A DNA stretch of 38,993 nt from Candidatus Auribacterota bacterium (GCA_026392035.1 JAPLCX010000026.1:1-38993); one strand, 5' to 3'; positions 1,224-36,858 are shown, numbered from the stretch's first letter. Numbers and translations are program-made. Notes: generated by a model from the sequence alone, not told the origin.

Positions 1224-4200
1224 CTATTTAAAATCCCGCTTTGAAAATTTGCGGATTAAGTGGTTCCGGCAATCCACGATATAGACCCCTGGGCCATCCT
1301 TTTCCAACGCGATCCCCATGGGGAACTGGAGAAGAGGTTTGCCGGATTCAGAAGGCTTCAGTACCCCGAGCAGCTTCCCGTCTCTTGAATACTTAAGCAA
1401 CCTGTGGCCGGGCGGATCCGTCAGGTAAATGTCACCCGTGCTGTCAACGTCAAGGTACGGCTCATTAAACACTCCCTGCTCCCAGCCGTCAACCTTGAAC
1501 TCGCTCAGGTAATTCCCCTCTCGGTCGAGTATCTGAACTCGCTTATTCCCGGCATCTGCCACATATACCTTCCCCTTCCGATCAATGGCAATTCCTACCG
1601 GGGATATAAACTCTCCCCTCCCGCTCCCCTTCTTCCCTATAGTTTTGATCGGCTTCCCGTCCCCTGCAAAAACCTTCACCATCCCATTCCCCGAATCCGC
1701 AACCCAGGTGTCCGCGACATAGACTTTCCCGTCCCCGCCGACGGTCACGCCGCAAGGGTCCTTGAATTGGCCCGGGTAGTCACCCTCCTCCCCCCACGCC
1801 TTGACAAAGAGACCCTTTGCGTCGAACTTTTGTATCCGGTAGTTGCGAAAATCGGCGACGTAGGCATTCCCCTGGCCATCGAGGGCGATCCCGCGAGGCT
1901 CGGTGTACTGCCCCGGCGCATCACCCTGCCCCCCCTCGAGCATCTGCACGCGCGGAGGCGCGGGGGCTGGTATCGCTGGAGCCGCACCCGCACCCTTCTC
2001 TCCCTGCCCGCCCCTGCCCACCCCGCCGAAGTACGCGGTCTGATAAATCGCCGCGCCCTTATTCCTGAAGACGGGGCGGAAAATATCGGTGAGCTGGTTA
2101 AACTTTTCCAGCTGGTCAGGTCGATATTTAATTCTCTCGGTGTTGCCCACATAGACGTAGTCGATATTATATTTAGCAATAAGCGCGCTCAGTTCGGCCG
2201 GATCTATTGACGTATAAAGCTTTATCACGTCGTTCCTGCGCATCTCTTCGTAGCGATACCCCCTCTGGGAGACATGACTCCCCCAGCCCACCACCGTGGG
2301 CAAACCGGTATTCGCGCTGACCCTGGCGTATTCATATAGATAATCGGCACCCGTCGCCTCGGCGATCACAGGCTGTCCGGGAACCGCCTCATTGAGCCAG
2401 GAGATCGCATCGTACTCATCGGGTACGCTCGCCCTCATGTACGCATACCCGTTGAGCGTGGGGCGGCTCAGCATCCTCGGGAATATCGTTTTGAGCGGAC
2501 CGCGGGGCGGCTCTAATGATCTTCGCCCATAGTTATCGTCGCCGATTGTTCTGGCCCTCGGCCCCATGACGGTGAACACCAGCGAGGCCGCGAGGAGCGC
2601 GAAGAGGAGCGCGCGCCAGACGGCTCTCACCAGTAATCGCAGAAATCTCTTTACCCCCCCGCCCTGATGCGCTGGGGCATCGAATATTCGGGACAGGCAA
2701 TAGCTGCCGGCGATGGAAAAGAAAAACCAGACCGGCATGTAGAACTTGAATATCGTGTTCATCCTCTTCCACTCGCCCCCTTGGAGGAAGTCCTTTATGT
2801 GGAATATCTCGCAGAGGGCTATGATGGAATATCCATAGAGGACGAGGGTGAGGACGTAGACTGCCGACCTGTTAAAACGGTTCCTTTTGAGGACAATAAG
2901 CCCCGTGAAGAGAAACGCGAGCGCGATGGAGAGCGTCGCATAATCACGCGTTCCCAGCACCCTGAAGACAATCCATGGTGCCGCCGCAGCGAGCAACATC
3001 CCGAAGACGAAAAGCGCCCTCGCCCAGAGCCGGCGCCTCCTGTCAATGTAGCGGAGAAGCTCGCGCGCGAAGAGGCCGGTAATGATGAAGATAAAGAAGC
3101 CAAAAAAGCGGAGGAGGGCCAAGGGACTGGTGGTCAAATTCCCCACGAGGCCGATCCCCATCCCCTGCCTGCCGAAGAACTGGAAAAATGGCGAATAGGC
3201 GACCAGCGCGGTCAGGGCAAGGAGCAGCGTCGGGCCGGCCGTCTTCACCAGCGCCCTGAGCGGACTTCCCACCATCCCCTCGCCGCGGATTATCGAGAGA
3301 ATGAATCGGATGATGCGACCGAAGAAACCGCTGTTCCACCATATCGTATATGATGCTATGGGGATGCGTGAGGGCGGCGTCCGCTGGACAATCACCTCCC
3401 TTGCCAGGAGCACCAGCGCAAGCATGAGCAGATACGTGGGAAAGTCCCACGTGTTCATCGGTATCATCATGCCGATCACGACCGCAGAGATAAAGAAATT
3501 AGCGAGTGCTTCCATTCCGCGGCCTGGTAGGCCGATGCCATGGCGGCTCTCCAAGAGAATATTGAGGCCGAGTGCAAGAAGAAAGATGCCGAACGGCATG
3601 GCGATGATGTGGGCGTGCAGATCAACAAAGATAAAGCTCCAGAGCGGGAACTCGTGCACCGTGTATGCAATCACCTCGTGGGCGCAGCGGAAAAAACGGA
3701 ACACGGGCTCATGGTGGGTGGGCATGGCGATGCGGCAGAAGCGGTACAAGGCTTCCCTCCATGGCTGCGTGTCGATCAGGAGGAAGAAACCATCGAGGTT
3801 CCCCATGAGCCCCGCGAAAACCCCTCCGCACACACCGTACCTGATCCTGCCCGTGACAGTGTACACGATGGAGAAGACGCACGAAATCACCAGCGCGGGA
3901 ATGAGACAGAAACAGAGATTGTAGCTTATATGCGAGGGGATCCCCGCCAGCTTCGTGAGCATGGCGACGAGGTAATGGCCGTAGTAGTAGTAGTTGAGGC
4001 AGATTCCCGACGCCCACGGATCAATTGGGGGGAAGGAACGGCTCCGCAGAATTGAATTTATGAACGAGGAGTCCATGGAGCTCTCGCTCCAATAGATATC
4101 GGGATTGTAGAGCCGGAAAAGCAGGAACAGGCAGAACGCCCCGAAAAATACCAGTTCGGAAACGATGATCTGCTTCCTCCTCAGCCTGAAAAAGGCGCGC

Positions 4201-7085
4201 CACCCGCATTCGCCCTCGGCGCGCTGCCATGAGAGGAGGAGCACCACGGCCAGGGAGAGGAGGATGAGCCGGCGGGAAAACGCTGCGGCGCCAAGGCTCG
4301 CCGTGATCCAGACGATGTAGCCGGCGAGCGCGATCGCCATGACCTTGGCGAATGGGTATCCCCGGTCGGCAAGGTTGCCGAAGAACGAAGCTGTCAGCGG
4401 CAGGGCGAGGAGCCCCATGATCTCCACCATGGCGAGCCATACGATGAGCGCTCGCAGTCCGCTGTAGCGCGAGGGGGTGTACCCCTCGAGAGAGGGTTCT
4501 ATGGCGCCTGTCCGTCTCTCAGGGCGGTTGGACTCGTCCGCCCCGAGTGCATCCGCGAGCACCGGCCAGTAATCGATCTTGGGCTCTGCCTTGAGGAGTC
4601 GCTCGATGTATTCGGCAGGATAATTCGCCACCTTGCGGAAGAGAAGCACCTTGGGGTGATCGTACACCGTGAAGCTTTCGTCGGAGTAGTCATCGTCAAA
4701 ACTGATCCCCCAGAGCCGCGGGTGTGCGGCCACGCTCTTCACCAGCCTGTAGCCAAGCCGCTCAGCAAAGAGCAACCGGTAGTAATTCGATGTGATGGGG
4801 TAGCGATCCGGGACCCTGAGGACGGAGCCGTACATCCGTTTTGTCGGGATCGCAATGAGGTAGCCCTCCGCCAGTTCGCGAGCGAGGTCCCTCGCCTTGT
4901 TCCTGTCGTCGGTTTTGTAAATGTCCAGCTGCTTGACGGTGTAGCGATGCGTGCCGGTATTCCCCTCATCGGTGTGGCAGGGGAGGCCGCCGAATTCCCA
5001 TGTCTCACCGAGGATGTGCGAGCCCTTCGGGATATTTTTATAGATCCAGCGCGACGCGGTGATACGCGAGCTCTCGCGCCCGTAGATGCCCGTATAGGCG
5101 AGCGAGTAGAAAACGGAAAAGGCGAGCACGAGTCCGAGGGCACCGCGCAGGGCGATCCCCCAGCCGCGCTCGCGCACCCTCTCATAAACCAGGCAGACTC
5201 CCTGCGCCCCGAGCATGCAGAAGAACGGGATGAGGGGGGCAAGGTAGCGGAGGAATTTGACCTGAAAACTCAGCGTGACGCCTCCCACCGGCACGAGCCA
5301 CATCATGAGGAGCAGCGCACTCCGGTCTGGTTTCCTGAGCCAGCGGCACATGAGGTAACCTGTGCCCGCGAGGACGGTAATCCCCAGGGGCGCCCCCATG
5401 CAGTACCCGACGAGGTTTTTGATCTGGTATAATCCCTTCACGGTGTGCGCATACTGTAAGGTCCATGGTGGCGCCCATCTCCCCTGGACCATATCCTTTT
5501 GCTCTCTCAGCTGCCTCATGAATTCCTTGTGATCGATGAAGAAGAATGGCGCGCACACGGTAAAAGACGCGGCGCACACGATAAGTCCGGCGAAAAGCTT
5601 TCCCCATTGACTGAGCGAACGCATCCTTCCCTGCCTCCAGCAATAGGCGACGTGGGCAAACCCAAGGGGGAGGAGAATCGGCAGCGCGGTGAACTTTGTG
5701 GCGAGTGCCAATCCCGAGAAAAGGCCGGCGAGGCAATAGTGCCGCAACCTCCCCTCCTGCATGACGCGCGCGTTTGAGTAGATTGCCAGCATGATCAGGC
5801 TGGTGAGCATCACATCAACCGTCAGGAAGTGAGCGAGCTGGATATGGAATACCGTGAAGGCGAAAAAGAGAGAGGCCAGGCAGCCGGAACGCCTCGAGAA
5901 GAGCCGGCTCCCGATGAGAAACGTGAGGAAAATCGTCAGCGTGTCAAAAAATGCGGACCAGGCCCGGCCCACGACAAAGAGATCACCTGCCACGGGAAGG
6001 GCGCGAGGGAGGATGCACGTCAAAAAATTGTGCGACGACCTGATGAGGTAGAGCGGCAGCGAGCCGTACGCAAAGAAGTGCGGGTTATACGCCTCGATGC
6101 GTTCCCTGACCGTGACATGCTCGCCCCGGTCAATCTTACCCCTCAGGGCGTGGAGCTGCCTGTCGATATCGCCGACCGCGTACGAGACACGCGCCTCATC
6201 GGGATGGAACACCTCCGGCCTCCCCCAATCGAGGCGGTAAAAGCGGAGGCCGCCCCCGAGGAGCAAGGCCGCGAGGAAGAACACGAGGTATCGTCTGTTG
6301 CTGTTCATTTTTTCAGGAGACCGTTGACATAAAAACCCAGGGGAGACTCCCCTATAGCAACCCTTCCAATCGCAGTAACGTATCCTGAGCACGTCGAGAA
6401 ACATCCGCAACGGATCGCTCGCGATACTCACCCGACTCCGCGGGGAATCATACCAGGTCACCGGGACCTCCGCGATGCGGTATCCGTATTTCCGCGCGAT
6501 AAAGAGCGCCTCCACATCGAAACTGAAACGCTCAATCCGCTGTTGCGCGAACACGCGCCTCGCCGCGTCAGCGCGGAACAGCTTGAATCCGCACTGGGTG
6601 TCCTTGAAGCCGCGGAGCGTGAAGACCCTCACGATCTTGTTATATATTTTTCCCATCAGCTCGCGGTACCACGGCTGGTGGACGCGCACGTCCGCCCCTC
6701 GAGCGCTCCGCGATCCGATGGCGATGTCAAATCCCTCGTGGAGCAGCTTCGGAAAGAGCTTTTCCGCATCTTCGATGGGTGTCGAGAGATCCGCGTCGGA
6801 AAAGAGGATGTACGCTCCGCGCGCCACCTCGATGCCATGCCGCACTGAGAACCCCTTGCCCCGATTCGTACCGTTGAGGACAACCCTCACGTTCGGCTTC
6901 CTCGCGGCATACGCCTCGGCGACGCGGACGGTGCCGTCAGTGGAACCATCATCCACCGCAATGACTTCAAAGGGCTGCCCTCGCGCGGACAGGTACTCAT
7001 ATACCCTCTCAAGCGTCGCCCCGAGCCTTGGCTCCTCATTGAAGGCGGGAATCACCACCGAGAGATAGAGTTCGTCTTCTTTCAT
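1224..7085 (-). CDS. GT2 / PMT-like / YYY (DUF2298) / NHL fusion glycosyltransferase
   Basis: This 1953-residue membrane protein has four parts. Residues 1-~250 are a GT2 dolichyl-phosphate-glucosyltransferase-type domain (SVVIPAFNEE, DDGSTDGT, FSDADLSTP, DTQCGFKLF). From about 260 follows a PMT/ArnT-like GT-C region (FHPDEARVSYAVG near its start, many membrane segments, soluble tail to ~860). From ~870 to ~1690 is a YYY/DUF2298 domain with the signature LNYYYYGHY near 1032 and a MNTWDFPTY motif. After a Gly/Ala/Pro-rich linker, residues ~1700-1953 form an NHL propeller. Known roles suggest that GT2 charges a polyprenyl phosphate with sugar and the GT-C part transfers it outside the membrane; the role of YYY proteins is unproven. 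The GT2/PMT linker (RGVSPGFLCQRSPEKMNSNR) contains a terminator-like hairpin and an internal ATG at 6306-6308, so the first two domains may be a recent or artefactual join. The NHL part lacks 36 codons present in its paralog at 1-607. Confidence 0.85.
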   Translation of the reverse strand: MKEDELYLSVVIPAFNEEPRLGATLERVYEYLSARGQPFEVIAVDDGSTDGTVRVAEAYAARKPNVRVVLNGTNRGKGFSVRHGIEVARGAYILFSDADLSTPIEDAEKLFPKLLHEGFDIAIGSRSARGADVRVHQPWYRELMGKIYNKIVRVFTLRGFKDTQCGFKLFRADAARRVFAQQRIERFSFDVEALFIARKYGYRIAEVPVTWYDSPRSRVSIASDPLRMFLDVLRIRYCDWKGCYRGVSPGFLCQRSPEKMNSNRRYLVFFLAALLLGGGLRFYRLDWGRPEVFHPDEARVSYAVGDIDRQLHALRGKIDRGEHVTVRERIEAYNPHFFAYGSLPLYLIRSSHNFLTCILPRALPVAGDLFVVGRAWSAFFDTLTIFLTFLIGSRLFSRRSGCLASLFFAFTVFHIQLAHFLTVDVMLTSLIMLAIYSNARVMQEGRLRHYCLAGLFSGLALATKFTALPILLPLGFAHVAYCWRQGRMRSLSQWGKLFAGLIVCAASFTVCAPFFFIDHKEFMRQLREQKDMVQGRWAPPWTLQYAHTVKGLYQIKNLVGYCMGAPLGITVLAGTGYLMCRWLRKPDRSALLLMMWLVPVGGVTLSFQVKFLRYLAPLIPFFCMLGAQGVCLVYERVRERGWGIALRGALGLVLAFSVFYSLAYTGIYGRESSRITASRWIYKNIPKGSHILGETWEFGGLPCHTDEGNTGTHRYTVKQLDIYKTDDRNKARDLARELAEGYLIAIPTKRMYGSVLRVPDRYPITSNYYRLLFAERLGYRLVKSVAAHPRLWGISFDDDYSDESFTVYDHPKVLLFRKVANYPAEYIERLLKAEPKIDYWPVLADALGADESNRPERRTGAIEPSLEGYTPSRYSGLRALIVWLAMVEIMGLLALPLTASFFGNLADRGYPFAKVMAIALAGYIVWITASLGAAAFSRRLILLSLAVVLLLSWQRAEGECGWRAFFRLRRKQIIVSELVFFGAFCLFLLFRLYNPDIYWSESSMDSSFINSILRSRSFPPIDPWASGICLNYYYYGHYLVAMLTKLAGIPSHISYNLCFCLIPALVISCVFSIVYTVTGRIRYGVCGGVFAGLMGNLDGFFLLIDTQPWREALYRFCRIAMPTHHEPVFRFFRCAHEVIAYTVHEFPLWSFIFVDLHAHIIAMPFGIFLLALGLNILLESRHGIGLPGRGMEALANFFISAVVIGMMIPMNTWDFPTYLLMLALVLLAREVIVQRTPPSRIPIASYTIWWNSGFFGRIIRFILSIIRGEGMVGSPLRALVKTAGPTLLLALTALVAYSPFFQFFGRQGMGIGLVGNLTTSPLALLRFFGFFIFIITGLFARELLRYIDRRRRLWARALFVFGMLLAAAAPWIVFRVLGTRDYATLSIALAFLFTGLIVLKRNRFNRSAVYVLTLVLYGYSIIALCEIFHIKDFLQGGEWKRMNTIFKFYMPVWFFFSIAGSYCLSRIFDAPAHQGGGVKRFLRLLVRAVWRALLFALLAASLVFTVMGPRARTIGDDNYGRRSLEPPRGPLKTIFPRMLSRPTLNGYAYMRASVPDEYDAISWLNEAVPGQPVIAEATGADYLYEYARVSANTGLPTVVGWGSHVSQRGYRYEEMRRNDVIKLYTSIDPAELSALIAKYNIDYVYVGNTERIKYRPDQLEKFNQLTDIFRPVFRNKGAAIYQTAYFGGVGRGGQGEKGAGAAPAIPAPAPPRVQMLEGGQGDAPGQYTEPRGIALDGQGNAYVADFRNYRIQKFDAKGLFVKAWGEEGDYPGQFKDPCGVTVGGDGKVYVADTWVADSGNGMVKVFAGDGKPIKTIGKKGSGRGEFISPVGIAIDRKGKVYVADAGNKRVQILDREGNYLSEFKVDGWEQGVFNEPYLDVDSTGDIYLTDPPGHRLLKYSRDGKLLGVLKPSESGKPLLQFPMGIALEKDGPGVYIVDCRNHLIRKFSKRDFK
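1577..1707. repeat. Second copy of the 131-bp identical tract, at a deletion junction
   Basis: Identical to 1-131. At 1707/1708 the sequence jumps to the equivalent of base 240 in the other copy, so 108 bp (36 codons, bases 132-239 there) are missing here. In the protein this gives YVADT joined directly to WVADSGNG, merging two NHL blades in frame. Confidence 0.9.
6331..6353 (-). terminator. Terminator-like hairpin inside the GT2/PMT linker
   Basis: On the transcribed strand the order is AGGGGA, loop GTC, TCCCCT, then GGG and five T. The stem is a perfect 6 bp with a T-run three bases after it, resembling a weak intrinsic terminator. It lies within the long fusion ORF, in codons for the unusual linker VSPGFL, a few codons before an internal ATG. 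It may be a relic of an intergenic region between once-separate genes. Confidence 0.4.
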
Positions 7086-12746: not shown

Positions 12747-12758
12747 ATTGACTTACAC

Positions 12759-12876
12759 CACAGATACACACAGATGGGCGCAGATTCACACAGACATAGT
12801 ATATTGTGTGCATCCTGTTTTACACCCACTTCTGCACTCATCTGTGTTTATCAAAGTTCATCCGTGTGTATCTGTG
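12759..12876. repeat. Inverted-repeat (MITE-like) element with ACCACAGAT-type arms
   Basis: The left arm CACAGATACACACAGATG (12759-12776) pairs with the right arm at 12859-12876, matching 17 of 18 bases. Weaker complementarity continues inward (CAGATTCACACAGA against TCTGTGTTTATC). The element fills the gap between uvrB and uvrC and would fold into a long hairpin in either strand. A second element with related arms is at 35031-35167. Confidence 0.8.
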
Positions 12877-12886
12877 AAAAAACTAA

Positions 12887-23419: not shown

Positions 23420-24604
23420 ATGCAACCCCTTGCAGGCATCAAGGTTCTCGATCTGACCCGCGTTCTCGCGGGGCCTTTCTGCACGATGATCCTCGCGGAT
23501 ATGGGAGCCGACGTCATCAAGATCGAGCAGCCCGGGAAGGGCGACGACACGCGCGCGTTCGGCCCGCCATTCGAAAAAGGCGAGAGCGCCTATTTTCTCA
23601 GCATCAACCGCAACAAGAAGAGCATCACACTCGACATGAAGTCGGACAACGGCAAGGAAATCATCCGTCGGTTGATACAACGCTCAGACATTCTCGTTGA
23701 GAACTTCCGCCCGGGGACGCTCAAGAAGCTCGGTTTCGACTACGAAACCGTCTCGAAGATCAACCCGCGCCTCGTCTACGCATCCGTCTCCGGCTTCGGC
23801 CAGACGGGGCCGTGGTCAGCGAAATCGGGCTACGATCTCGCCATCCAGGGTCTCGGTGGAATCATGAGCCTCACCGGCGACGCGGGAGGCCCACCCTACA
23901 AGGTCGGGGTCTCACAGGCAGACCTCACTGCAGGCCTCTACGCGCTCCAGGGGATTTTGCTCGCGCTCTATGCGCGAGAGAAAACGGGGAGGGGGCAGCT
24001 GGTGGACGTCGGCATGTTCGATTGTCAGATCGCGCTCCTCAGCTTTCAGGCGGGGATCTACTTCATGACCGGCGTATCGCCCGCGCGGAAAGGGAACCAG
24101 CACCCCACCATCTGCCCCTATGAGACATTCAAGGCGCGGGACCGCTACCTCACTGTCGCTGTTGGCAATGACCGGCTCTGGCAGAAGTTCTGCGCGCTCC
24201 TCGGCCTCGAAAAGCTCCGGGATCATCCCGATTATTCAACAAACCCCAGTCGCGTGCAGCACCGCGATCGCCTCTTCCCGATCATCCAGGAGGAGATCGG
24301 CAAGAGGGAGAGCGCGCACTGGCTCAAACTCTTCGAAGAGGGTGGAATCCCCTCAGGCCCGATCCTCTCCGTCGAGGAAGCCCTCACCCAGCCGCAGACA
24401 CTCGCGAGGGAGATGGTGGCCACGGTGGATCACCGCACCCTCGGGAATATCAAACAGACGGGAATCCCCATAAAGCTTTCCGAAACACCGGGGGAGATAA
24501 AAAATCCCCCACCCTGCCTCGGCGAGCACACCGACGCCGTGCTCGAAAGCCTCGGCTATTCGGGTGCTGATATCCAGGCCATGAGGGCAGGCGGGGTTAT
24601 CTGA
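23420..24604 (+). CDS. CaiB/BaiF family (class III) CoA-transferase
   Basis: A 394-residue class III CoA-transferase, which moves CoA between a CoA thioester and a free carboxylic acid through an aspartyl intermediate. The family start PLAGIKVLDLTRVLAGPFCT, the DVIKIEQPGKGDDTR segment, FGPPFEKGESAYFLSINRNK, ASVSGFGQTGPW, and the catalytic aspartate (Asp168 in GVSQADLTAG) are present. The C-terminal part has ENRGRG-type residues replaced by GKRESAHWLKLFEEGGIPSG and PILSVEEALTQPQ, normal for the family. The substrate cannot be read from sequence; being upstream of methylmalonyl-CoA mutase genes suggests a short dicarboxylic or C3-C4 acid. The start ATG 23420 has AAGGAG before it. Confidence 0.9.
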   Translation: MQPLAGIKVLDLTRVLAGPFCTMILADMGADVIKIEQPGKGDDTRAFGPPFEKGESAYFLSINRNKKSITLDMKSDNGKEIIRRLIQRSDILVENFRPGTLKKLGFDYETVSKINPRLVYASVSGFGQTGPWSAKSGYDLAIQGLGGIMSLTGDAGGPPYKVGVSQADLTAGLYALQGILLALYAREKTGRGQLVDVGMFDCQIALLSFQAGIYFMTGVSPARKGNQHPTICPYETFKARDRYLTVAVGNDRLWQKFCALLGLEKLRDHPDYSTNPSRVQHRDRLFPIIQEEIGKRESAHWLKLFEEGGIPSGPILSVEEALTQPQTLAREMVATVDHRTLGNIKQTGIPIKLSETPGEIKNPPPCLGEHTDAVLESLGYSGADIQAMRAGGVI

Positions 24605-24751
24605 TCCACGCAGAGCAAGTTGCGGCTACATTCCTTTGACCGCTGAAGGCACTGAAAATACCCCCCACGACCGACGGCGCGCGATCCCCGCCACTTTTTT
24701 AAAGAATCGCCCGCCGCGGATTATGTATAATGCGTGGGAGCGGAGGAGGCC

Positions 24752-26413
24752 ATGCACAACGACATCACCGGCGCAAAGGCCAACTGGCAGGGCGCGGTAC
24801 GAGGAGCCCGCGCGAAAATCGGCGAGCGGAAGCCGACCTTCACCACATCCTCAGGCATACCCGTCGATCTCATCTACACCCCCGAAGATGTTGCCGGCCT
24901 CGACTATGTGAGCGACCTCGGATTCCCGGGCGAGTTTCCGTTCACCCGCGGCGTGCAGCCCACCATGTACAGGAGTCGCCTGTGGACCATGCGCCAGTAT
25001 GCGGGGTTCGGAACCGCGGAGGAATCGAATGCACGGTACCGCTACCTTCTCGATCAGGGGCAGACCGGCCTCTCCATTGCGTTCGATCTCCCCACGCAGA
25101 TCGGCTACGACAGCGACCACCCCCTCGCCGAGGGAGAGGTAGGGAGGGTTGGTGTCGCCATCGATTCCCTCGAGGACATGGAAACCCTGTTCAGGGGAAT
25201 TCCGCTGGACAGGGTGAGCACCTCCATGACCATCAACTCGACCGCCGCCATCCTCGTGGCCATGTACATCGCCCTCGCCGAGAAGGAGGGCGTCCGACGC
25301 GCCCTCCTGAGGGGGACCATCCAGAACGACATCCTGAAGGAGTACGTCGCCCGCGGCACCTATATATTTCCGCCGCGGCCGGCGATGCGCATCACCACGG
25401 ACATACTCTCTTTCTGCAGCCGCGAAATCCCCCGTTGGAATGCGATAAGCGTGAGCGGCTACCACATGCGCGAGGCGGGGGCCACCGCCGTGCAGGAGCT
25501 CGCCTTCACCCTCGCTGATGGGATCGCGTACGTCGAAGCGGCAATCGCTGCGGGCCTTGAGGTGGATGCCTTCGCACCGCGGATTTCATTCTTCTTCAAT
25601 GCCCACAACAATCTCTTCGAGGAAGTCGCCAAGTTCCGCGCGGCACGGAGGATGTGGGCGAGGATCATGCGCGAGCGGTTTAGCGCAGGCGACCCGCGCT
25701 CGCTCATGCTCCGCTTCCACGCGCAAACCGGCGGCTCCACACTCACCGCCCAGCAGCCTGACAACAACATCGTGCGCATCACGATCCAGGCGCTCGCCGC
25801 GGTCCTCGGCGGTGCCCAGAGCCTGCACACCAATTCGCGCGACGAAGCCCTGTGCCTCCCGACGGAGGAGTCTGTTCGCACCGCACTGCGAACGCAGCAG
25901 ATTATCGCCGATGAGAGCGGTGTCGCCGAAACCGTCGATCCGCTCGGAGGGTCCTACTACGTGGAGCATCTCACCAACCGGGTTGAACAGGAGGCGCGCG
26001 CGTACCTCAAGGAGATTGACTCGATGGGGGGCGCACTCAAGGCGATCGAGAACGGCTACATCCAGCGCGAGATCCAGACGAGCGCCTATGAGTACCAGAA
26101 GAGGGTCGAGCGCACGGAGCAGATCGTGGTCGGCCTCAACCGGTACGCCTCTGACATCGAGGGCCACGGCGCCCTCTTGCGCGTCACGCCCGAAACAGAA
26201 GAGAAGCAGCGCCGCACGCTCGCGAAGCTGAAGGCATCCAGGGACAGGGCTGCGGTCACGCGGGCCCTGGATGCGGTTGAGCACGCTGCGCGCGGCGCGG
26301 ATAATCTCATGCCGCCGATGCTCGCCGCGGTAAAATCATACGCAACCGTGGGAGAGATCTGCGACCGGCTGAGGGCGGTCTTCGGCGAATACCGGCCGGT
26401 GACGACACTATGA
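24752..26413 (+). CDS. mcmA1: Methylmalonyl-CoA mutase, large (catalytic) subunit
   Basis: The substrate-binding subunit of a split adenosylcobalamin-dependent acyl-CoA mutase. The fold signatures are [88 protein letters not shown] and [13 protein letters not shown]. Tyr83 (in RQYAGF) and Arg201 (in VARGTYIF) are the pair that characterises methylmalonyl-CoA specificity; isobutyryl- and 2-hydroxyisobutyryl-CoA mutases carry other residues there. I prefer ATG 24752, with GGAG six bases upstream; a GTG at 24734 in frame is possible. A TATAAT lies at 24726-24731 but without a good -35. It overlaps the B12 subunit gene by 4 bp. With 553 residues it lacks the B12 domain, as expected for the split type. 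Confidence 0.94.
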
Positions 26414-26808
26414 AAAGGAATACGCCGATCAGGGTTCTCATCGCCAAGCCGGGCCTCGACGGCCACGACCGCGGCGCCATCGTGATCGCCCACGCCCTGC
26501 GGGACGCCGGGATGGAGGTGATCTACACCGGCATCCGCCAGACACCGGAGCAGATCGCGAACACGGCGATCCAGGAGGACGTCCGCGTGGTTTGCCTGAG
26601 CTGCCTCTCCGGTGCGCACAACAGGCTGTTTCCGAGAGTCGTCGAGCTTCTCAGGGCGGAGGGGGCGCCCGATATCCTGGTTTTTGGCGGCGGCATCATC
26701 CCTGAAGAAGATATCCCCGCACTGAAGGAGGCAGGCATCGCGGAAATCTTCGGGCCGGGTACGATGCTTTCGGATATTGTTGCGTTCATCACAAAAAGTG
26801 TCCACTGA
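26410..26808 (+). CDS. mcmA2: Methylmalonyl-CoA mutase, B12-binding small subunit
   Basis: A 132-residue cobalamin-binding domain. The base-off signature DxHxxG is DGHDRG with His19 as the lower cobalt ligand. The family motifs [47 protein letters not shown] and [13 protein letters not shown] follow in order. It starts in an ATGA overlap with the large subunit gene, so the two are made together. Together they convert (R)-methylmalonyl-CoA and succinyl-CoA. Confidence 0.95.
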
Positions 26809-26902
26809 TATCGAGGCGTCATTCCTGCGGGAGCAAGAGTCCAGACACCGTGTCCGTGCTGACCGCCGGGGATGACTGTACAGGGATAGAATCCGGTATA
26901 TC

Positions 26903-27835
<933 letters not shown>

Positions 27836-27910
27836 GGACTGCGCGTTCCATGACCGCTCATCTTTGAGATAAATCCGCAACTCTCAACCCTCAACCGGAG
27901 CTTGTGAACT

Positions 27911-28324
27911 ATGATTGTTAAAATCGACCATATCGGGATTGCCGTCAGGAAGATTGAGGATTCACTCCCCCTCTACCGTGACCTCCTCGGTCTCAAAAAC
28001 ATCCGCATCGAGAAGGTGCCGGAGCAGAAGGTGCGCGTGGCGATGATACGGATCGGCGAGGTAAAGATCGAGCTCGTCGAGGCGCTCGGCCCAGACAGCC
28101 CGATCTCGAAATTCATCGAAAAAAGGGGCGAGGGGATCCACCACATTGCCCTGAGCACTGATGATATACGCCGCGACATCCAGAGGGCGACATCGTCCGG
28201 AATCAAGCTTATCAACGAGACACCGACGCGGCGCGGCGACGAGTACGAAATCGCCTTCCTCCACCCCTCCTCTACCGGCAAGGTCCTCATCGAACTCTGC
28301 CAGCCGATTCAAAGCCATCGCTAA
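27911..28324 (+). CDS. mce: Methylmalonyl-CoA epimerase
   Basis: Interconverts (S)- and (R)-methylmalonyl-CoA. It is a 137-residue vicinal-oxygen-chelate protein with two beta-alpha-beta-beta-beta halves. The metal-binding positions are visible as His7 in VKIDHIGIAV, the GIHHIAL histidines near 77-78, and Glu128 in VLIELCQP. With the mutase subunits and MeaB it completes the succinyl-CoA/methylmalonyl-CoA module. The stop codon TAA lies inside the first palindrome of the REP array. Confidence 0.93.
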   Translation: MIVKIDHIGIAVRKIEDSLPLYRDLLGLKNIRIEKVPEQKVRVAMIRIGEVKIELVEALGPDSPISKFIEKRGEGIHHIALSTDDIRRDIQRATSSGIKLINETPTRRGDEYEIAFLHPSSTGKVLIELCQPIQSHR

Positions 28325-28444: not shown

Positions 28445-28510
28445 ATTAAATTTTGCCTTATAATGTTACTCTGACAGTTCGAGAGAACTATTCAGGAGGT
28501 GCTCATCGCA

Positions 28511-30391
28511 ATGGGCTACGGTTTCTGGGGCACACTGCTCACCGTTGATCTCACGACCGGGAAGATAGGCCAGCGATCAATCCCTGAGGATCGATTCAGG
28601 AAATATCTTCTCGGCAGCGGCCTGGCTGCCAAGCTGCTGTATGACGAGCTGGATATCAGGCTCGATCCCCTTGCCCCTGAGAACTCCCTCATTTTCATCC
28701 GCGGCCTGTTTAACGGCCTCGTGCTCCCCGGCGACAGCAAGTTCAACGTCTGCGCCCGCTCCCCCCTCACTGGCATCTGGGGAGAATCCGCAGCGGGGGG
28801 GCACTTCCACCAGCAGTTCAACGCGACCGGCTGGGACGGCGTCATCTTCACGGGGGCCTCACCAAAACCTGTCTACCTGTGGGTGAACGAAGAAAGGGTT
28901 GAAATCCGCGACGCATCGCACCTCTGGGGGCTTGACACATTCGAGACAAGCACACGTCTAAAAGCGGAGACAGATGAGAAGGCAATCGTCGCCGCGATAG
29001 GTCCCTCCGGCGAGAAGGGTGTCCTCTTCGCCTCGATTATGTTCGACGGCCACATCGCCCGCGCCGCCGGCCGCTGCGGCATGGGGACAGTGATGGGTTC
29101 GAAGAAACTCAAGGCGGTCGTGGTCCGCGGGAATAAGAAGCTTCCTGTGAAAGACCCTGAGGGCCTGAAGGCCGCCCTCAAGGAGCAGATACCCAAAATC
29201 CTTGAGGCAGCCAAGGGCCTCACCGATTTCTCCACCGCGGGCGGCGTCGAGGCGGTGGAGCTCCATGGCGACCTCCCCATCAAAAATTGGTATGAGGGGA
29301 GCTGGAAGGAGCAGGCGACGAAGATCTGCGGGCAGACGTTCATCCCCAAAACACTCGAGCGCCACTACGCATGCTTCGGCTGCCCCATCCGCTGCGCAAA
29401 GATTATCAAGCTTGACTCAGGCCCCTACGCGCCGCTCTTCGGCCACGCGCCGGAATACGAGACGCTCGCCGCCTTCGGGTCGATGTGCCTGATTGACGAC
29501 TACGAGGCCATCATGGCGGCGAACGAGACGTGCAACCGGCTCGGGATGGACACCATCTCCTGCGGCGGCGCGGTCGCCTTCGCCATTGAGTGCTACGAGA
29601 AGGGGGTCATCAGTACAAATGACACGGACGGGCTTGAGCTCACCTGGGGGAACGCCCCCGCCATGGTCGAGCTGGTCGGCCGCATCGGCAACCGCAGCGG
29701 TACGCTGGCCACGCTCCTCGGACAGGGGGTGAAACAGGCAGCGGAGAAACTGGGCCACGGGTCAGAACAATGGGCGGTCCACACCAAGGGCCTCGAGTAC
29801 CCCTACCACGATCCCCGCGCCTTCACCTGCATGGCGGCGAACTACGCCACGGGAAACCGCGGCGCGTGCCACCTCGAGGCGCTGAGTTATTTCCTGGGCC
29901 GCGGCGTCCCGCTCGCCGACATGGGCTACACGACGCCGCCCGATCCCCACTCGAACGAGGGGAAGGGGAAGATCTGCTATGACACGCAGAATTTTCAGGG
30001 CCTCTTCAATCCCCTCGGCCTCTGTAAGTTTTTATTCCTGGGGAGGGTCGGTCCGCAGTGGATAACCGGCTGGCTCAACTACGTCGCGGGATGGGACATC
30101 ACGATGCATGACCTGCTCCACATTTCCGAGCGACTCATCAACCTGAAGCGGATGTACAACGTGCGGCTCGGGATACGGAGGAAGGACGACAAACTCCCGC
30201 CGCGCCTCGCGACTCACGCGCGCCCGAGTGGGGGGGCGAAGGGCGTCCTGCCCGATGTGGACAAGATGGTCTCCGAACTCTACGCGCTCCGCGGCTGGGA
30301 TAAGGATGGGATCCCCACACAAGCGACCGCGGCCCGCTTCGGACTTGAACAGGAATACCATTTGATTGAGAAGGCCGTCACAAAAATGTAG
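28511..30391 (+). CDS. aor: Aldehyde:ferredoxin oxidoreductase (tungsten type)
   Basis: AOR enzymes oxidise aldehydes to carboxylic acids, or the reverse, with ferredoxin as partner and a tungsten- or molybdenum-bis-pterin cofactor. The N-terminal domain shows LGSGLAAKLLYDEL, GVIFTGASPKPVYLWVNEE and GHIARAAGRCGMGTVMGSKK. The [4Fe-4S] ligands are Cys288, Cys291 and Cys295 (CFGCPIRC) with the distal Cys505 in NPLGLCKF. APEYETLAAFGS is the conserved middle motif. The start ATG 28511 follows AGGAGG by 11 bases; an upstream GTG at 28499 would overlap that site. Length is 626 residues. Which aldehyde it uses is unknown. It follows the mce gene after the REP array, and its acid product could feed the CoA-transferases in the island. 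Confidence 0.92.
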   Translation: MGYGFWGTLLTVDLTTGKIGQRSIPEDRFRKYLLGSGLAAKLLYDELDIRLDPLAPENSLIFIRGLFNGLVLPGDSKFNVCARSPLTGIWGESAAGGHFHQQFNATGWDGVIFTGASPKPVYLWVNEERVEIRDASHLWGLDTFETSTRLKAETDEKAIVAAIGPSGEKGVLFASIMFDGHIARAAGRCGMGTVMGSKKLKAVVVRGNKKLPVKDPEGLKAALKEQIPKILEAAKGLTDFSTAGGVEAVELHGDLPIKNWYEGSWKEQATKICGQTFIPKTLERHYACFGCPIRCAKIIKLDSGPYAPLFGHAPEYETLAAFGSMCLIDDYEAIMAANETCNRLGMDTISCGGAVAFAIECYEKGVISTNDTDGLELTWGNAPAMVELVGRIGNRSGTLATLLGQGVKQAAEKLGHGSEQWAVHTKGLEYPYHDPRAFTCMAANYATGNRGACHLEALSYFLGRGVPLADMGYTTPPDPHSNEGKGKICYDTQNFQGLFNPLGLCKFLFLGRVGPQWITGWLNYVAGWDITMHDLLHISERLINLKRMYNVRLGIRRKDDKLPPRLATHARPSGGAKGVLPDVDKMVSELYALRGWDKDGIPTQATAARFGLEQEYHLIEKAVTKM

Positions 30392-31930: not shown

Positions 31931-33484
31931 GTGGGGCACACCGTGCTGAAGAATATTGTGGTAAAAAATCGCTACGTCGATTCTATCATGCTCATGTCCA
32001 TTTCCGCGCGGACAAAAGGCGGTGCCGGCGTGAAAGAGGTTTCGGCAATGATGGGGACGGATGCGAACAAAGAGCTCATGAACGCATCCGGACTCCTGGA
32101 CGATGCCGGGCGCGCCGCCGGGCCGATGGACCTCGTCATCGCGGTCGAAGCCCGTGATGACGCGGCGATACGGAAGGCCGCCTCAGCGATGGAGGATCTC
32201 CTCACCCGCCGCGAGGAAGCGTCCGGAGCCGCCGATGAGGCGCCGCCGCGCTCGCTCGCGCGCGCCCTCGAACTCTGCCCGGGGGCAAAGCTCCTTTTCA
32301 TTTCCCTCCCCGGCGCCTACGCCCGCCGCGAGGCTGAGGCGGCGCTCGACAAGGGCCTTCACGTGATGATTTTCAGCGACAATGTGACCCTCGCGGACGA
32401 GATTGCCCTCAAGAGAAAAGCCCGGGACCTCGGTCTCATCGTCATGGGGCCCGACTGCGGGACAGCGATCATCGGCGGCGTCGCTCTCGGGTTCGCGAAC
32501 GTGGTCAACCGCGGGCCGGTGGGGATCGTCGGCGCGTCGGGAACCGGCATCCAGGAGGTGAGCTGCATCATCTCCAACATGGAGCACGGCATCACCCACG
32601 CCATCGGGCTGGGCGGCCGTGACCTTAAGGAGGAGGTGGGCGGCATCAGCATGCTCATGGGACTGGAGGCGCTCGACGCGCACGCCGATACGAAACTGAT
32701 CGTGCTCATTTCAAAACCTCCCGCCCCGGCGGTCGCACGGAAAATACTGGACAGGGCTCAATCCTGCGCGAAACCCGTCATCGTGAACTTCTTGAAGGGT
32801 GACCCGTCGGAGGCCGCGAAGCGCGGCCTCCAATTCTCACCCACGATCGAGGGAGCAGCCCTCATGGCGGTCGCCGCCCTGAGGGGGAAGAAGTGCACCC
32901 CGTCCGGAATCCACCCCGAACTCCAATCGCAGGCGAAAGAGGCAAGGAAGACATTGAACCCAAGGCAAAAATATATCCGCGGCCTCTATTCCGGTGGGAC
33001 GCTCGCAGACGAGGCGCTGCTGATCCTTCAGGGGGTGGTCGGAGACTGTTATTCCAATACGCCGTTGAAACCTGAGTTGAAGCTCAAAGACTCGAAGAAG
33101 AGCGTGGGACACTGCCTCGTAGATCTCGGCGATGACGAGTTCACCCGCGGCAGGCCGCACCCCATGATTGACTTCACGTTCAGGTGCGAGCGGATCGTGC
33201 AGGAGGCCGAAGACCCGGAGACCGCCGCGATCCTTATCGACGTCGTGCTGGGCTACGGCTCGCACCCTGACCCCGCGGGCGCCCTCGTTCCGGCGATCGA
33301 GAAGGCTCGTAAGATCGCAAGCGCTGAGGGCCGGTCGCTCCCATTCGTCGCTTCCATAACCGGCACCGACGCCGACCCGCAGAATCGTTCGCGGCAGAAG
33401 ACGGCGCTCGAGAGCGCAGGCGTGCTCATCGCGCCGACCAATGCCCAGGCAGCCCGCCTCGCGGGAGTCATAGTGAAAGGATAA
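31931..33484 (+). CDS. fdrA: FdrA family protein (succinyl-CoA-synthetase-like)
   Basis: A 517-residue FdrA protein, distantly related to acyl-CoA synthetases (NDP-forming). The start VVKNRYVDSIMLMSISARTK, the CoA-binding-like MIFSDNVTLADEIALKRKAR, LGLIVMGPDCGTAIIGGVAL and GIVGASGTGIQEVSCIISNM, and the later DEFTRGRPHPMIDFTFRCER and GYGSHPDPAG motifs match the family. In E. coli, FdrA (AllF) with YlbE (AllG) and YlbF (AllH) forms oxamate carbamoyltransferase. The phospho-histidine segment of succinyl-CoA synthetase alpha (GHAG) is not present: the equivalent stretch reads KRGLQFSPTIEGAALM, so classical ligase chemistry is unlikely. The start is uncertain (GTG 31931 or GTG 31943). The DUF1116 gene follows 78 bp later. 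Confidence 0.88.
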   Translation: MGHTVLKNIVVKNRYVDSIMLMSISARTKGGAGVKEVSAMMGTDANKELMNASGLLDDAGRAAGPMDLVIAVEARDDAAIRKAASAMEDLLTRREEASGAADEAPPRSLARALELCPGAKLLFISLPGAYARREAEAALDKGLHVMIFSDNVTLADEIALKRKARDLGLIVMGPDCGTAIIGGVALGFANVVNRGPVGIVGASGTGIQEVSCIISNMEHGITHAIGLGGRDLKEEVGGISMLMGLEALDAHADTKLIVLISKPPAPAVARKILDRAQSCAKPVIVNFLKGDPSEAAKRGLQFSPTIEGAALMAVAALRGKKCTPSGIHPELQSQAKEARKTLNPRQKYIRGLYSGGTLADEALLILQGVVGDCYSNTPLKPELKLKDSKKSVGHCLVDLGDDEFTRGRPHPMIDFTFRCERIVQEAEDPETAAILIDVVLGYGSHPDPAGALVPAIEKARKIASAEGRSLPFVASITGTDADPQNRSRQKTALESAGVLIAPTNAQAARLAGVIVKG

Positions 33485-33562
33485 ATCGCCGTTTCGCCGT
33501 TTCACCCATTCGCCGGTTCGGTTCTATTTTTCACCACATGATATTGCAGGGGAGCACAGGTC

Positions 33563-34990
33563 ATGAACATAAATAGGATTAATGAATTATGGCAGGATAA
33601 GCTCTCAGCTATCAGCATGGGCTTAAAGTCGTTCACCAAGTCCATGGCGGCACAGGGCGCCGGGGTGATCCATGTCGACTGGCGGCCTCCCGCGGGGGGC
33701 GACCCCCAGATGCTCGCGGCGCTCGATTCACTGCGTCCGCTCGGAGAGAAGATCAACAGAGCAAACGATACCGCGCTCACGATGATGATGGGCGCACAGC
33801 CAGTCCTCGTCGACCTCCGTCCAGCGCGGGAGGCAATCCCGGGGATGAAAGAGAATCTCATCCTCCACGCAGGGCCACCCATCGAATGGGAGAATATGTG
33901 CGGACCCATGCGCGGGGCAATCGCAGGAGCCCTGATCTATGAGGGGAAGGCGACGTCGCTCGAGGAGGCTGAGAAACTCGCCGCGCGCGGTGAGATAGAA
34001 TTTTCACCGTGCCACCACCACGGCGCCGTGGGGCCGATGGCCGGTGTCATCTCTCACTCGATGTGGGTACTCTGCGTTGAAAACAAATCCAAAGGCAACC
34101 AGGCATTCGCCACACTCAACGAGGGCCTGGGCAAGGTGCTCCGTTTCGGCGCCAACACCCCCGACGTCATCACGAGACTCAAGTGGATGGAGACGACACT
34201 CGCCCCCGCCCTCGCCAAGGCCGTCCGCCACGCTGGCGGGATCAACATCAAGAGCCTGATCGCGCAGGCGCTCATCATGGGGGACGAGTGCCATAACCGC
34301 AACGTGGCTGCGACGGGTCTCTTTCTCCGCGCCATCACTCCCCACCTGCTCGCGACCGACCTCGACAAGGAGGCGATCGGACAGATCTTCCAATTCATCA
34401 GCGGCAACGACCACTTCTTCCTCAACCTTTCCATGGCGGCATCCAAGGCGACCGTGGACACCATCAAGAAACTCGAATACAGCACCGTCATGTACGCCAT
34501 GGCCCGGAATGGGGTAGAGATTGGCATCCGCGTGGCAGGGCTCGCCGACCGCTGGTTCACCGCTCCCGCGGGTGAGCCTCAGGGTCTCTACTTTCCAGGC
34601 TACAGTGCTGCGGATGGCTGCCTCGACCTGGGCGACAGCACCATCACGGAGACAGCAGCGATCGGCGCCATGGCCATGGCGAGCGCTCCCGCAATTGTCA
34701 AATTTGTCGGAGGCGCGCCCGCGGACGCGATTCGCTACACGAAGGAGATGTACGAGATCTGTTGGGGAATCCACAGGGACTTCCAGCTCCCCGCGCTCGA
34801 TTTTCGCGGCACGCCCGCGGGCGTTGACATACGGAAGGTCGTCGAGACGGGCATCACCCCGATCATCAACACCGGCGTGGCTCACAAGAACCCGGGGATC
34901 GGCCAGATCGGCGCCGGCATACTTCGGGCGAATATGGCCTGTTTCAAAGACGCCCTGGCAGAGTTCGCCAAAAGTTATTCACAGGAATAA
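33563..34990 (+). CDS. ylbE: DUF1116 (YlbE/AllG-like) protein
   Basis: A 475-residue DUF1116 protein. Recognisable stretches are WRPPAGGDPQMLAALDSL, GMKENLILHAGPPIEWENMC, GPMRGAIAGALIYEG, FSPCHHHGAVGPMAGVISHS, INIKSLIAQALIMGDECHNR and GNDHFFLNLSMAASKATVDT. In E. coli the homologue YlbE is one subunit of oxamate carbamoyltransferase together with FdrA and YlbF. Here fdrA is directly upstream but no YlbF (DUF2877) gene follows; instead an MdcA gene is next. The conserved HHH and ECHN motifs suggest an active or metal site, though this is inference. The start ATG 33563 has GGGAG upstream. Confidence 0.88.
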   Translation: MNINRINELWQDKLSAISMGLKSFTKSMAAQGAGVIHVDWRPPAGGDPQMLAALDSLRPLGEKINRANDTALTMMMGAQPVLVDLRPAREAIPGMKENLILHAGPPIEWENMCGPMRGAIAGALIYEGKATSLEEAEKLAARGEIEFSPCHHHGAVGPMAGVISHSMWVLCVENKSKGNQAFATLNEGLGKVLRFGANTPDVITRLKWMETTLAPALAKAVRHAGGINIKSLIAQALIMGDECHNRNVAATGLFLRAITPHLLATDLDKEAIGQIFQFISGNDHFFLNLSMAASKATVDTIKKLEYSTVMYAMARNGVEIGIRVAGLADRWFTAPAGEPQGLYFPGYSAADGCLDLGDSTITETAAIGAMAMASAPAIVKFVGGAPADAIRYTKEMYEICWGIHRDFQLPALDFRGTPAGVDIRKVVETGITPIINTGVAHKNPGIGQIGAGILRANMACFKDALAEFAKSYSQE

Positions 34991-35030
34991 GAAACAGGAT
35001 GCACGCAGATACACAGGATTTTCAATTTTA

Positions 35031-35167
35031 ACCACAGATTAACACAGATGAATACAGATTATTAAGGCGGCAACAGGGTTTCTAGCCGCTGGCTGCTGGA
35101 ATGATCTTAATCCGCCCATTTTTCGTAATCCGCGGCTAAAAATGCCGTATTTGTGTTTATCTGTGGT
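35031..35167. repeat. Inverted-repeat element with ACCACAGAT arms
   Basis: ACCACAGATTAACACAGATG (from 35031) and its inverse partner at 35145-35167 (rc: ACCACAGATAAACACAAATA) match in about 20 of 23 bases. The 137-bp element lies between the DUF1116 and MdcA genes and its right arm ends 23 bp before the MdcA start. Degenerate arm-like sequence also precedes it (35000-35018). It is related to the element at 12759-12876. Confidence 0.78.
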
Positions 35168-35190
35168 TTACCGTTAAGGAGAATAATCCC

Positions 35191-36858
35191 ATGGCAGGGA
35201 AGGATTACCAGTCGCTCGCGCGAGATAAAGGAAAGCGTGTCGCTGCCGCGAGCCCGCTGTCGCTGGATGGCTCAAAGGTCGTCCCCCCAGATAGGGCAGC
35301 GGCGCTCCTCTACGCCGTCATACGTCCCGGAGACCGCGTCGCCATAGAGGGCAATAACCAGAAGCAGGCTGATTTTCTCGCGAGGATTCTCGCGGGCCTC
35401 GACCCGCGCAGGATTAACAGCCTGCACATGGTCCAGTCCTCGGTCGCGCTCCCGGAGCACATCGCCGTCTTCGAGCGGGGCATTGCCCGCGACCTCGACT
35501 TCGCCTTCTCCGGCCCCCAGGCGAAGGAACTCGCGCGCATCGTAAACGAGGGGAAGGTGAAGATCGGGGCGATCCACACCTACCTCGAGCTCTTCGGCCG
35601 CTACTTCGTGGACCGCACGCCGCGCGTCTCCCTCATCGCCGCGGAGCTCGCCGACGCGCGCGGCAATCTCTTTACCGGGTTCAACACGGAGGAGACGCCG
35701 ATCATCGCCGAGGCGACCGCCTTCAAACAGGGGATCGTCATCGCCCAGGTGCGCGAGATAACGGATGCCCTGCCGCGCGTGGATATCCCGGGAGACCAGG
35801 TGGACTTCGTCATCCCCTGCGGCTCATCTCCGTACATCGAGCCGCTCTTCACCCGTGACCCCGCGAAGATTACCGAGGCCCAGATTTTTATGGCGATGCT
35901 CGCCCTCAAAGGAATTTACCTCCCCTACATGGTCACCAACCTCAATCACGGTATCGGTTATGGTACGGCAGCAATCGAACTCCTCCTCCCCACCTACGGG
36001 GAAACACTGGGCCTCAAAGGGAAGGCCTGCACACACTGGATCCTCAACCCTCACCCCACCCTGATCCCGGCGATCGAGACGGGGTTTGTGGAGACCGTGC
36101 ACTCGTTCGGCAGCGAGCCCGGCATGGAGGAGTACGTCCGGGCGCGGAGCGACATCTTCTTCAACGGCCCCGACGGCAGCATGCGCTCCAACCGGCTGCT
36201 GTCGCAGGTCGCCGGCCTCTATGCGAGCGACATGTTCGTGGGCCTCACCCTCCAGATCGATGAGAACGGGAACAGCTCGACGGCGACCACAAACCGGATC
36301 GCCGGATTCGGCGGGGCGCCCAACCTCGGCGATAATCCAGGCGGCCGGAGGCACGCGAGCAGCGCCTGGCTCATGGCGGGGCGCGAGGACGAGGGTCGCA
36401 GGCGCGCCGTCGGAGGCCTGCCGCGCGGGCGGAAACTCGTGGTGCAGATCACCCCCACGCAGAGCGAGAAGAAAGGCATCCCGGTCTTCGTCGAGAAACT
36501 CGAAGCTGAAAAGCTCTTCGAGCAGAAGCTCTTCCCCCTCCCGCCGATTATGCTCTACGGAGATGTGATCACGCATATCGTGACAGAGAAGGGAATCGCG
36601 GTTTTGCACCGCTGCCCGGATCTCTCAACACGCCAGGCGGCGATCCGCGCCATTGCCGGGGATACGCCGGTGGGGCGGAAGGAGAAGAATGCGGAAACGG
36701 AGCAACTCAAGAAGCAGGGCATCGTTCTCTGTCCGGATGATATCGGCGTCAGGAGGGAAGAGGCGCAGCACTCGCTCCTCGCCGCGAGGAGCATCGCCGA
36801 TCTGGTCAGCGCTTCCGGAGGCCTCTACAAGCCTCCCGCACGCTTCCTCCCCGTTTAA
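35191..36858 (+). CDS. mdcA: Malonate decarboxylase alpha subunit-like CoA/ACP transferase
   Basis: Full-length (555 residues) and clearly of the MdcA type: DRVAIEGNNQKQADFLARIL, FERGIARDLDFAFSGPQAKE, IGAIHTYLELFGRYFVDRTP, FNTEETPIIAEATAF, LPRVDIPGDQVDFVIPCGSS, IEPLFTRDPAKIT, NHGIGYGTAAIELLLPTYGE, HWILNPHPTLIPAIETGFVE, ARSDIFFNGPDGSMRSNRLL and RIAGFGGAPNLGDNPGGRRH are all present. In malonate decarboxylase MdcA exchanges acetyl for malonyl on the acyl-carrier subunit, and the isolated alpha subunit can act as a CoA-transferase. None of MdcB, C, D, E, G or H is nearby, so this protein probably works as a stand-alone transferase with the FdrA/DUF1116 pair. AAGGAG lies before ATG 35191. Confidence 0.92.
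   Translation: MAGKDYQSLARDKGKRVAAASPLSLDGSKVVPPDRAAALLYAVIRPGDRVAIEGNNQKQADFLARILAGLDPRRINSLHMVQSSVALPEHIAVFERGIARDLDFAFSGPQAKELARIVNEGKVKIGAIHTYLELFGRYFVDRTPRVSLIAAELADARGNLFTGFNTEETPIIAEATAFKQGIVIAQVREITDALPRVDIPGDQVDFVIPCGSSPYIEPLFTRDPAKITEAQIFMAMLALKGIYLPYMVTNLNHGIGYGTAAIELLLPTYGETLGLKGKACTHWILNPHPTLIPAIETGFVETVHSFGSEPGMEEYVRARSDIFFNGPDGSMRSNRLLSQVAGLYASDMFVGLTLQIDENGNSSTATTNRIAGFGGAPNLGDNPGGRRHASSAWLMAGREDEGRRRAVGGLPRGRKLVVQITPTQSEKKGIPVFVEKLEAEKLFEQKLFPLPPIMLYGDVITHIVTEKGIAVLHRCPDLSTRQAAIRAIAGDTPVGRKEKNAETEQLKKQGIVLCPDDIGVRREEAQHSLLAARSIADLVSASGGLYKPPARFLPV

Follow-up and report, generated by a model that had tools for sequence, protein, structure and literature searches.

What is the gene for a full-length alpha subunit of malonate decarboxylase (Mdc), MdcA, doing beside fdrA and a DUF1116 gene? 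The question is raised by a 38,993-nucleotide stretch of DNA from a Candidatus Auribacterota bacterium (GCA_026392035.1, JAPLCX010000026.1:1-38993), called here the window, with positions counted from its first letter and with its own genome referred to as G000. The genes stand as follows:

31931-33484, plus strand: fdrA/allF (FdrA model NF004760, 522 bits against a cut-off of 433; also PF00549 and PF02629).
33563-34990, plus strand: allG, the DUF1116 gene (PF06545, 314 bits).
34991-35190, no strand: allG-mdcA gap of 200 bases, in which a dispersed CATCTGTG..ATCTGTGG repeat occurs twice.
35191-36858, plus strand: orphan mdcA, full length (TIGR01110, 802.6 bits against a cut-off of 789.15).

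The first-pass annotation had placed these three genes in one direction, as the profile scores confirm, and had proposed that their products assemble into a single new enzyme, MdcA taking the place of YlbF (AllH, DUF2877). We lean, with rather more belief than doubt, towards another reading: a dispersed pyrimidine-catabolic module in which AllF, AllG and AllH (AllFGH) would phosphorolyse an acylurea, likeliest ureidomalonate, and MdcA would activate malonate, so that MdcA makes more sense as a step that follows FdrA and AllG in one pathway. Briefly, uracil would be oxidized to barbiturate by a molybdenum (Mo) hydroxylase and the barbiturate ring opened to ureidomalonate by a cyclase of family PF04199; AllF and AllG, with AllH from another contig, would phosphorolyse ureidomalonate to malonamate and carbamoyl phosphate, from which the carbamate kinase ArcC would make ATP; a nitrilase or amidase would turn malonamate into malonate, and the orphan MdcA, freed of MdcC, would convert acetyl-coenzyme A (acetyl-CoA) and malonate into malonyl-CoA. 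Acylureas (R-CO-NH-CO-NH2) share the cleaved bond, and ureidomalonate is oxalurate plus one CH2. For oxalurate, AllFGH activity has been shown in E. coli (PMC11326118). Please note that gene content, conservation, co-occurrence and the MdcA residue pattern are observed, and that we infer every substrate and reaction from context.

The window FdrA matches the E. coli FdrA structure (3dmy, E 9e-88), and we predict an AllF-type transcarbamylase subunit with a CoA-ligase-like fold; the start of its gene is uncertain, as the sister genes begin at the residue matching the GTG at 31943, which may be the true start. AllG matches PDB 3clq (E 2e-127), and its N-terminal residues 11-57 match the C-terminal tail of NF004760, the FdrA model. 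Among the bonds that the FdrA/DUF1116 core had been proposed to make or break (acyl-phosphate, carbamoyl or CoA), the carbamoyl part is probably correct. MdcA matches the MdcA of 5vit (E 4e-192), and a GGAG ribosome-binding site precedes its ATG. fdrA and allG are separated by 78 bases, and no convincing promoter was seen on inspection of the allG-mdcA gap. The dispersed repeat (CATCTGTGT..ATCTGTGG) occurs as two pairs in the window, at 12758-12877 and 35032-35166, four copies against none expected from shuffling. In a Clostridium allantoin operon (L251:9864-12866), FdrA and AllG are fused in one open reading frame (ORF) of 1000 residues.

Conservation of the trio in related genomes had been set beforehand as a test, and it holds: the fdrA-allG-mdcA order and orientation are repeated in the sister genomes G001, G003 and G005, and allG and mdcA are adjacent on a short contig in G004, while the mdcA contig of G002 ends within allG (contig ends cut the trio in two of the six genomes of the window's family, G000-G005). 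The mdcA of G001, G003 and G005 is 76-83% identical. The arrangement is more than chance. In G003 and G005, the trio lies between a group made of AllH, the cyclase, the uridine phosphorylase Udp and a nitrilase on one side and a BMP-type ATP-binding cassette (ABC) transporter on the other; the ABC transporters near the trio in the sister genomes are of the nucleoside type, and G002 and G003 add PreT-like, PreA, dihydropyrimidinase and/or ureidopropionase-like nitrilase genes (family-tested). In G006, from another family, AllH, FdrA and AllG stand together with the cyclase and Udp 3-5 kb off, and MdcA is on a separate contig, directly 5' of a gene for a pyridoxal phosphate enzyme. Two sisters also carry MdcA and MdcD of the ordinary Mdc-operon type (L098, G004:C278; L099 and L166, G001:C172 and C100).

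The absence of DUF2877, as claimed from the window, fails at the level of the genome. One AllH match was found in G000 (G000:C13:2989-3330; PF11392, 80.6 bits; gene confirmed), with the PF04199 cyclase and then Udp (TIGR01718 over cut-off) on its 3' side, and with the same phylogenetic profile as the trio; homologues of AllF, AllG and AllH are all encoded, AllH on a different contig. A DUF2877 gene elsewhere in the genome with this profile had been named beforehand as a finding that would refute the three-protein enzyme. The companion claim, that no other Mdc subunit is present, stands for MdcE, which is absent from the own genome by a profile search that in control genomes matched only below cut-off, and for MdcD, whose search gave nothing better than an AccD-like match well short of the cut-off; for MdcC, none was seen beside mdcA, and no genome-wide search was aimed at it. 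The catabolic carbamate kinase ArcC is encoded on G000:C47 (TIGR00746, 405.5 bits against a cut-off of 358.25), flanked by several carbamoyltransferase-like genes (L197), and G000:C54 (L194, L195) holds a purine-type island with XdhC-like, YgfK-like and SsnA-like genes and two Mo-hydroxylase operons; taken together, this island and the ArcC surroundings suggest an organism that ferments nucleobases. Reductive pyrimidine genes are found on G000:C21, with PreA (NF006183, 551.6 bits) and dihydropyrimidinase (TIGR02033, 465.1 bits) both over cut-off, together with PreT and an aminotransferase gene.

Of 44 genomes of the phylum, 12 encode AllG, and strong cyclase orthologues are present in the same 12 plus G028 (hypergeometric 6e-10; 1.6e-4 at the family level), while MdcA is found in eight of the 44, all of them AllG holders (3e-6). 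Full-length ArcC over cut-off and Mo hydroxylases of the xanthine dehydrogenase type occupy the same ten of 24 genomes, and ArcC shares its ten with the cyclase. G013 and G031 combine AllG with a double cyclase and a Mo hydroxylase. In G022, one contig end carries AllH-FdrA and another carries AllG, the cyclase, a Mo hydroxylase and, between AllG and the cyclase, a two-subunit CoA-transferase. The malonate-activating slot is filled differently, by MdcA in the window's family, by an AtoDA-type enzyme in G022, by a CaiB-type enzyme in L247 and by complete Mdc in L252. This variety favours malonate as the product and speaks against MdcA being a transcarbamylase subunit.

The residues of MdcA were compared with the P. 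aeruginosa MdcA reference (PMC5534430) in eight orphans (window, G001-G006 and G021). The orphans keep the malonate/oxyanion residues N59, Y134, N258, I261, N292, F312, R341 and G381, with Q345 changed to H in two. F424 is replaced by Q, V or R, and E466 by K, R, V or A; position 490 is D or E, where 81 of 83 other MdcAs have Y or F. Taken together, the MdcC-docking residues (F424, E466 and aromatic 490) are lost in all eight orphans and kept in at least 79 of the 83 others. In P. aeruginosa, a single F424 mutation breaks the holoenzyme, whereas E466A or I490A alone left the Mdc complex intact (PMC5534430), so the docking argument is carried by F424 and the joint loss. With the malonate and catalytic residues kept and MdcC docking lost, the orphans are probably stand-alone malonate CoA-transferases, that of the window probably an acetyl-CoA:malonate CoA-transferase, in which free CoA would be used in place of MdcC; the earlier proposal that MdcA passes CoA to a malonate-like acid is supported in this form. 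The orphans form a clade (100/99) that is sister to L041/L060, from cyclase-cluster Mdc, and to L037, a Syntrophaceae MdcA (L037:8052-9659) with the same docking residues lost and no MdcC-E nearby, which is a candidate second orphan malonate CoA-transferase judged from its sequence. The L037 gene adjoins a solute:sodium symporter gene, with MmdA/OadB-like genes near.

The cyclase of the own genome is 78% identical to those of L060/L252, against 54% for AllG, 40% for FdrA and 60% for MdcA, a pattern that speaks for a single substrate in common. The nearest structural relatives of its model, which is of moderate quality (pLDDT 76.5, residues 23-63 poor), include isatin hydrolases, enzymes that open a cyclic amide; we consider the PF04199 cyclase a candidate replacement for AtzD-type barbiturase. 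No match to the latter (PF09663) was found in 24 genomes, where the control search likewise matched nowhere.

Similar clusters are found in other lineages, those of L247, L252 and L248 in Bacillota. When 20 genomes with MdcA from other groups were tested, seven had AllG, the allantoin-type L251 among them. L247 (Defluviitaleaceae) has a Xan_ur/UraA-type permease, FAD, FeS and Mo hydroxylase subunits, AllG, cyclase, nitrilase, FdrA, CoA-transferase III and an MmdA-type decarboxylase. L252/L060 and L250/L041 combine a Mo hydroxylase, a uracil-permease-like NCS2 protein (UraA-type), a PucR-like regulator, AllH, FdrA, AllG and cyclase with an M42 peptidase, an OadB-like protein, a biotin carrier, MdcA, MdcC (TIGR03130 over cut-off) and MdcD/E-like proteins. 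L248/L249 (Flavonifractor type) hold an amidase, ArcC (over cut-off), a cytosine-deaminase-like protein, permeases (UraA-type in L248) and cyclase, then AllG, FdrA, AllH, OadB and Mdc, L248 with a PucR-like regulator; G073 (L072) resembles them in sequence over a stretch that does not cover the AllG side. On haloarchaeal plasmids, a cyclase about 50% identical lies beside Mo-hydroxylase subunits, in L256 also with cytosine deaminase and codB. Next to Udp in G003/G005 stands a nitrilase with 51-53% identity to the one between cyclase and FdrA in L247, and this shared enzyme is a candidate malonamate amidase; it gave no match on six own-genome stretches and the window, the remaining genome not having been searched. 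Whether all this amounts to an energy-conserving anaerobic uracil/cytosine route (Mo hydroxylase, cyclase barbiturase, ureidomalonate AllFGH and a malonate CoA-transferase, MdcA or AtoDA/CaiB) in at least two bacterial phyla, with its first half in haloarchaea, we judge evenly balanced.

Several points weigh against the pyrimidine module. For this genome, the weakest step is the first: the cluster-type Mo hydroxylase was not found there as a close orthologue, the Mo hydroxylases of the own genome reaching only 33-36% identity to that type, and since a reductive uracil route (PreTA, dihydropyrimidinase, aminotransferase) exists in the family, uracil oxidation is perhaps unneeded; for both reasons, barbiturate formation in this organism is uncertain. 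To our knowledge, AllFGH is known only with oxalurate or oxamate. The pathway enzymes are predicted from their genes, neighbour genes were mostly named by eye with a subset family-tested, the backbones of the trees for AllG and FdrA have weak support, and the co-occurrence P values are too small because the genomes are related.

Among the alternatives, the one that survives best takes the reductive route as its source: the transcarbamylase would phosphorolyse N-carbamoyl-beta-alanine, and MdcA would activate malonate from malonate semialdehyde, perhaps via an aldehyde:ferredoxin oxidoreductase (AOR), for which a gene lies 1.5 kb upstream of fdrA:

28499-30391, plus strand: AOR (PF01314, PF02730).

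This agrees with PreA, dihydropyrimidinase and the adjoining aminotransferase in the own genome. However, to phosphorolyse an alkyl urea is unfavourable, as the precedent of citrulline indicates, a ureidopropionase-like nitrilase already covers the step in the sisters, and in L247, L252 and L248 the same cyclase and AllFG occur with no PreTA or dihydropyrimidinase seen; we regard this route as unlikely. The AOR may be functionally tied to the trio, as a candidate only. An AOR-family gene also lies near the haloarchaeal cyclase cluster (L256:20118-20741), which may be chance.

An ordinary oxamic transcarbamylase, in which purine breakdown via allantoin supplies AllFGH with oxalurate and MdcA is a neighbour by chance, has in its favour the activity demonstrated in E. 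coli (PMC11326118), and purine-type genes are at hand in the own genome (Mo hydroxylases, YgfK/SsnA-like genes and ArcC with carbamoyltransferases, partly named by eye). Yet E. coli and L251 form a clade (100/100 for AllG, 99/96 for FdrA) that excludes the window proteins; the L251 allantoin cluster bears AllG with no cyclase nearby, whereas AllG always comes with the cyclase in the window's phylum; and allG-mdcA adjacency is kept across the family, with AllG recurring beside malonate genes in Bacillota. An allantoin/oxalurate role is disfavoured by tree placement and the L251 contrast, and it appears improbable to us.

A third possibility draws on genes for methylmalonyl-CoA metabolism; those for the mutase, MeaB and the epimerase are found 3.6-7 kb upstream of fdrA:

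23420-28324, plus strand: CoA-transferase III, mutase large and small subunits, MeaB and epimerase (profile matches).

Here AllFGH would cleave a methylated ureide from thymine, and MdcA would make methylmalonyl-CoA for the mutase and epimerase; G003 has a similar cluster about 10 kb from its trio. The cluster has its own CoA-transferase III, and the malonate-pocket residues of MdcA are unchanged, leaving this idea a slim chance. Methylmalonate use may instead be a side activity of the MdcA route, with the cluster a possible sink for methylated analogues. Finally, the single enzyme of FdrA, AllG and MdcA is rejected as very improbable: gene adjacency is conserved in the family, but AllH is encoded in the own genome, MdcA is unlinked on another contig in G006, and AllFGH and Mdc are each complete, separate sets in L252/L060 of Bacillota.

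Elsewhere in the window, an FG-GAP-like gene (named by eye) lies upstream of the trio and a radical SAM gene downstream; a very large ORF of 1953 residues (1224-7085, minus strand) adjoins a DUF2298 membrane protein gene. The Rfam scan and the tRNA search of the window gave no match.

If the pyrimidine module is real, AllFGH widens from a single oxalurate enzyme to a family harvesting carbamoyl phosphate from several acylureas, and candidate genes are at hand for three steps: uracil oxidation by a Mo hydroxylase, a non-AtzD barbiturase and transcarbamylation of ureidomalonate. The case of MdcA suggests that an acyl-carrier-dependent subunit may turn into a free-standing CoA-transferase. In the literature on FdrA with malonate decarboxylase or uracil, on DUF1116 and on barbiturase with uracil and malonate, preprints and most subscription papers being outside our scope, we found no description of the pathway.

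Oxidative pyrimidine degradation in Rhodococcus leads from uracil through barbiturate and ureidomalonate to malonate and urea. The proposed intermediates to ureidomalonate and the malonate product are alike; here, however, carbamoyl phosphate, hence ATP, would be formed rather than urea, a PF04199 cyclase would replace the AtzD-type barbiturase, and the hosts are apparently anaerobic. Conjugative plasmids (L169, Aminobacter pSR8; L175, a Citrobacter IncA plasmid; L168, an E. coli IncF plasmid) carry AllFGH-like sets and ArcC together with one of two hydrolases, a ring-opening amidohydrolase of the AtzD type or a cysteine hydrolase, a hint that this transcarbamylase family also serves in the use of cyanurate/biuret or barbiturate. 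The sets of pSR8 and Citrobacter pE51_002 resemble ours in joining FdrA-DUF1116-DUF2877-ArcC to a cyclic-ureide opener and a base transporter, and differ in their AtzD-type ring opener, with no MdcA or cyclase seen there. The closest paper that we found reports allFGHK adjoining triuret/biuret genes in nitrifiers, read as oxalurate use (PMC12625717). With biotin-independent Mdc (PDB 5vit; PMC5534430), the window shares a full-length MdcA with malonate-binding and oxyanion residues, but no MdcD or MdcE was found in the own genome and the orphans lack the MdcC-docking residues. E. coli AllFGH (fdrA, ylbE, ylbF; PMC11326118) with its carbamate kinase AllK is matched in AllF/AllG/AllH homologues, ArcC and the carbamoyl-phosphate logic; here, AllH is on another contig, the proteins belong to a different clade, and the context is not allantoin but the cyclase, Udp, nucleoside-type transporters and MdcA.

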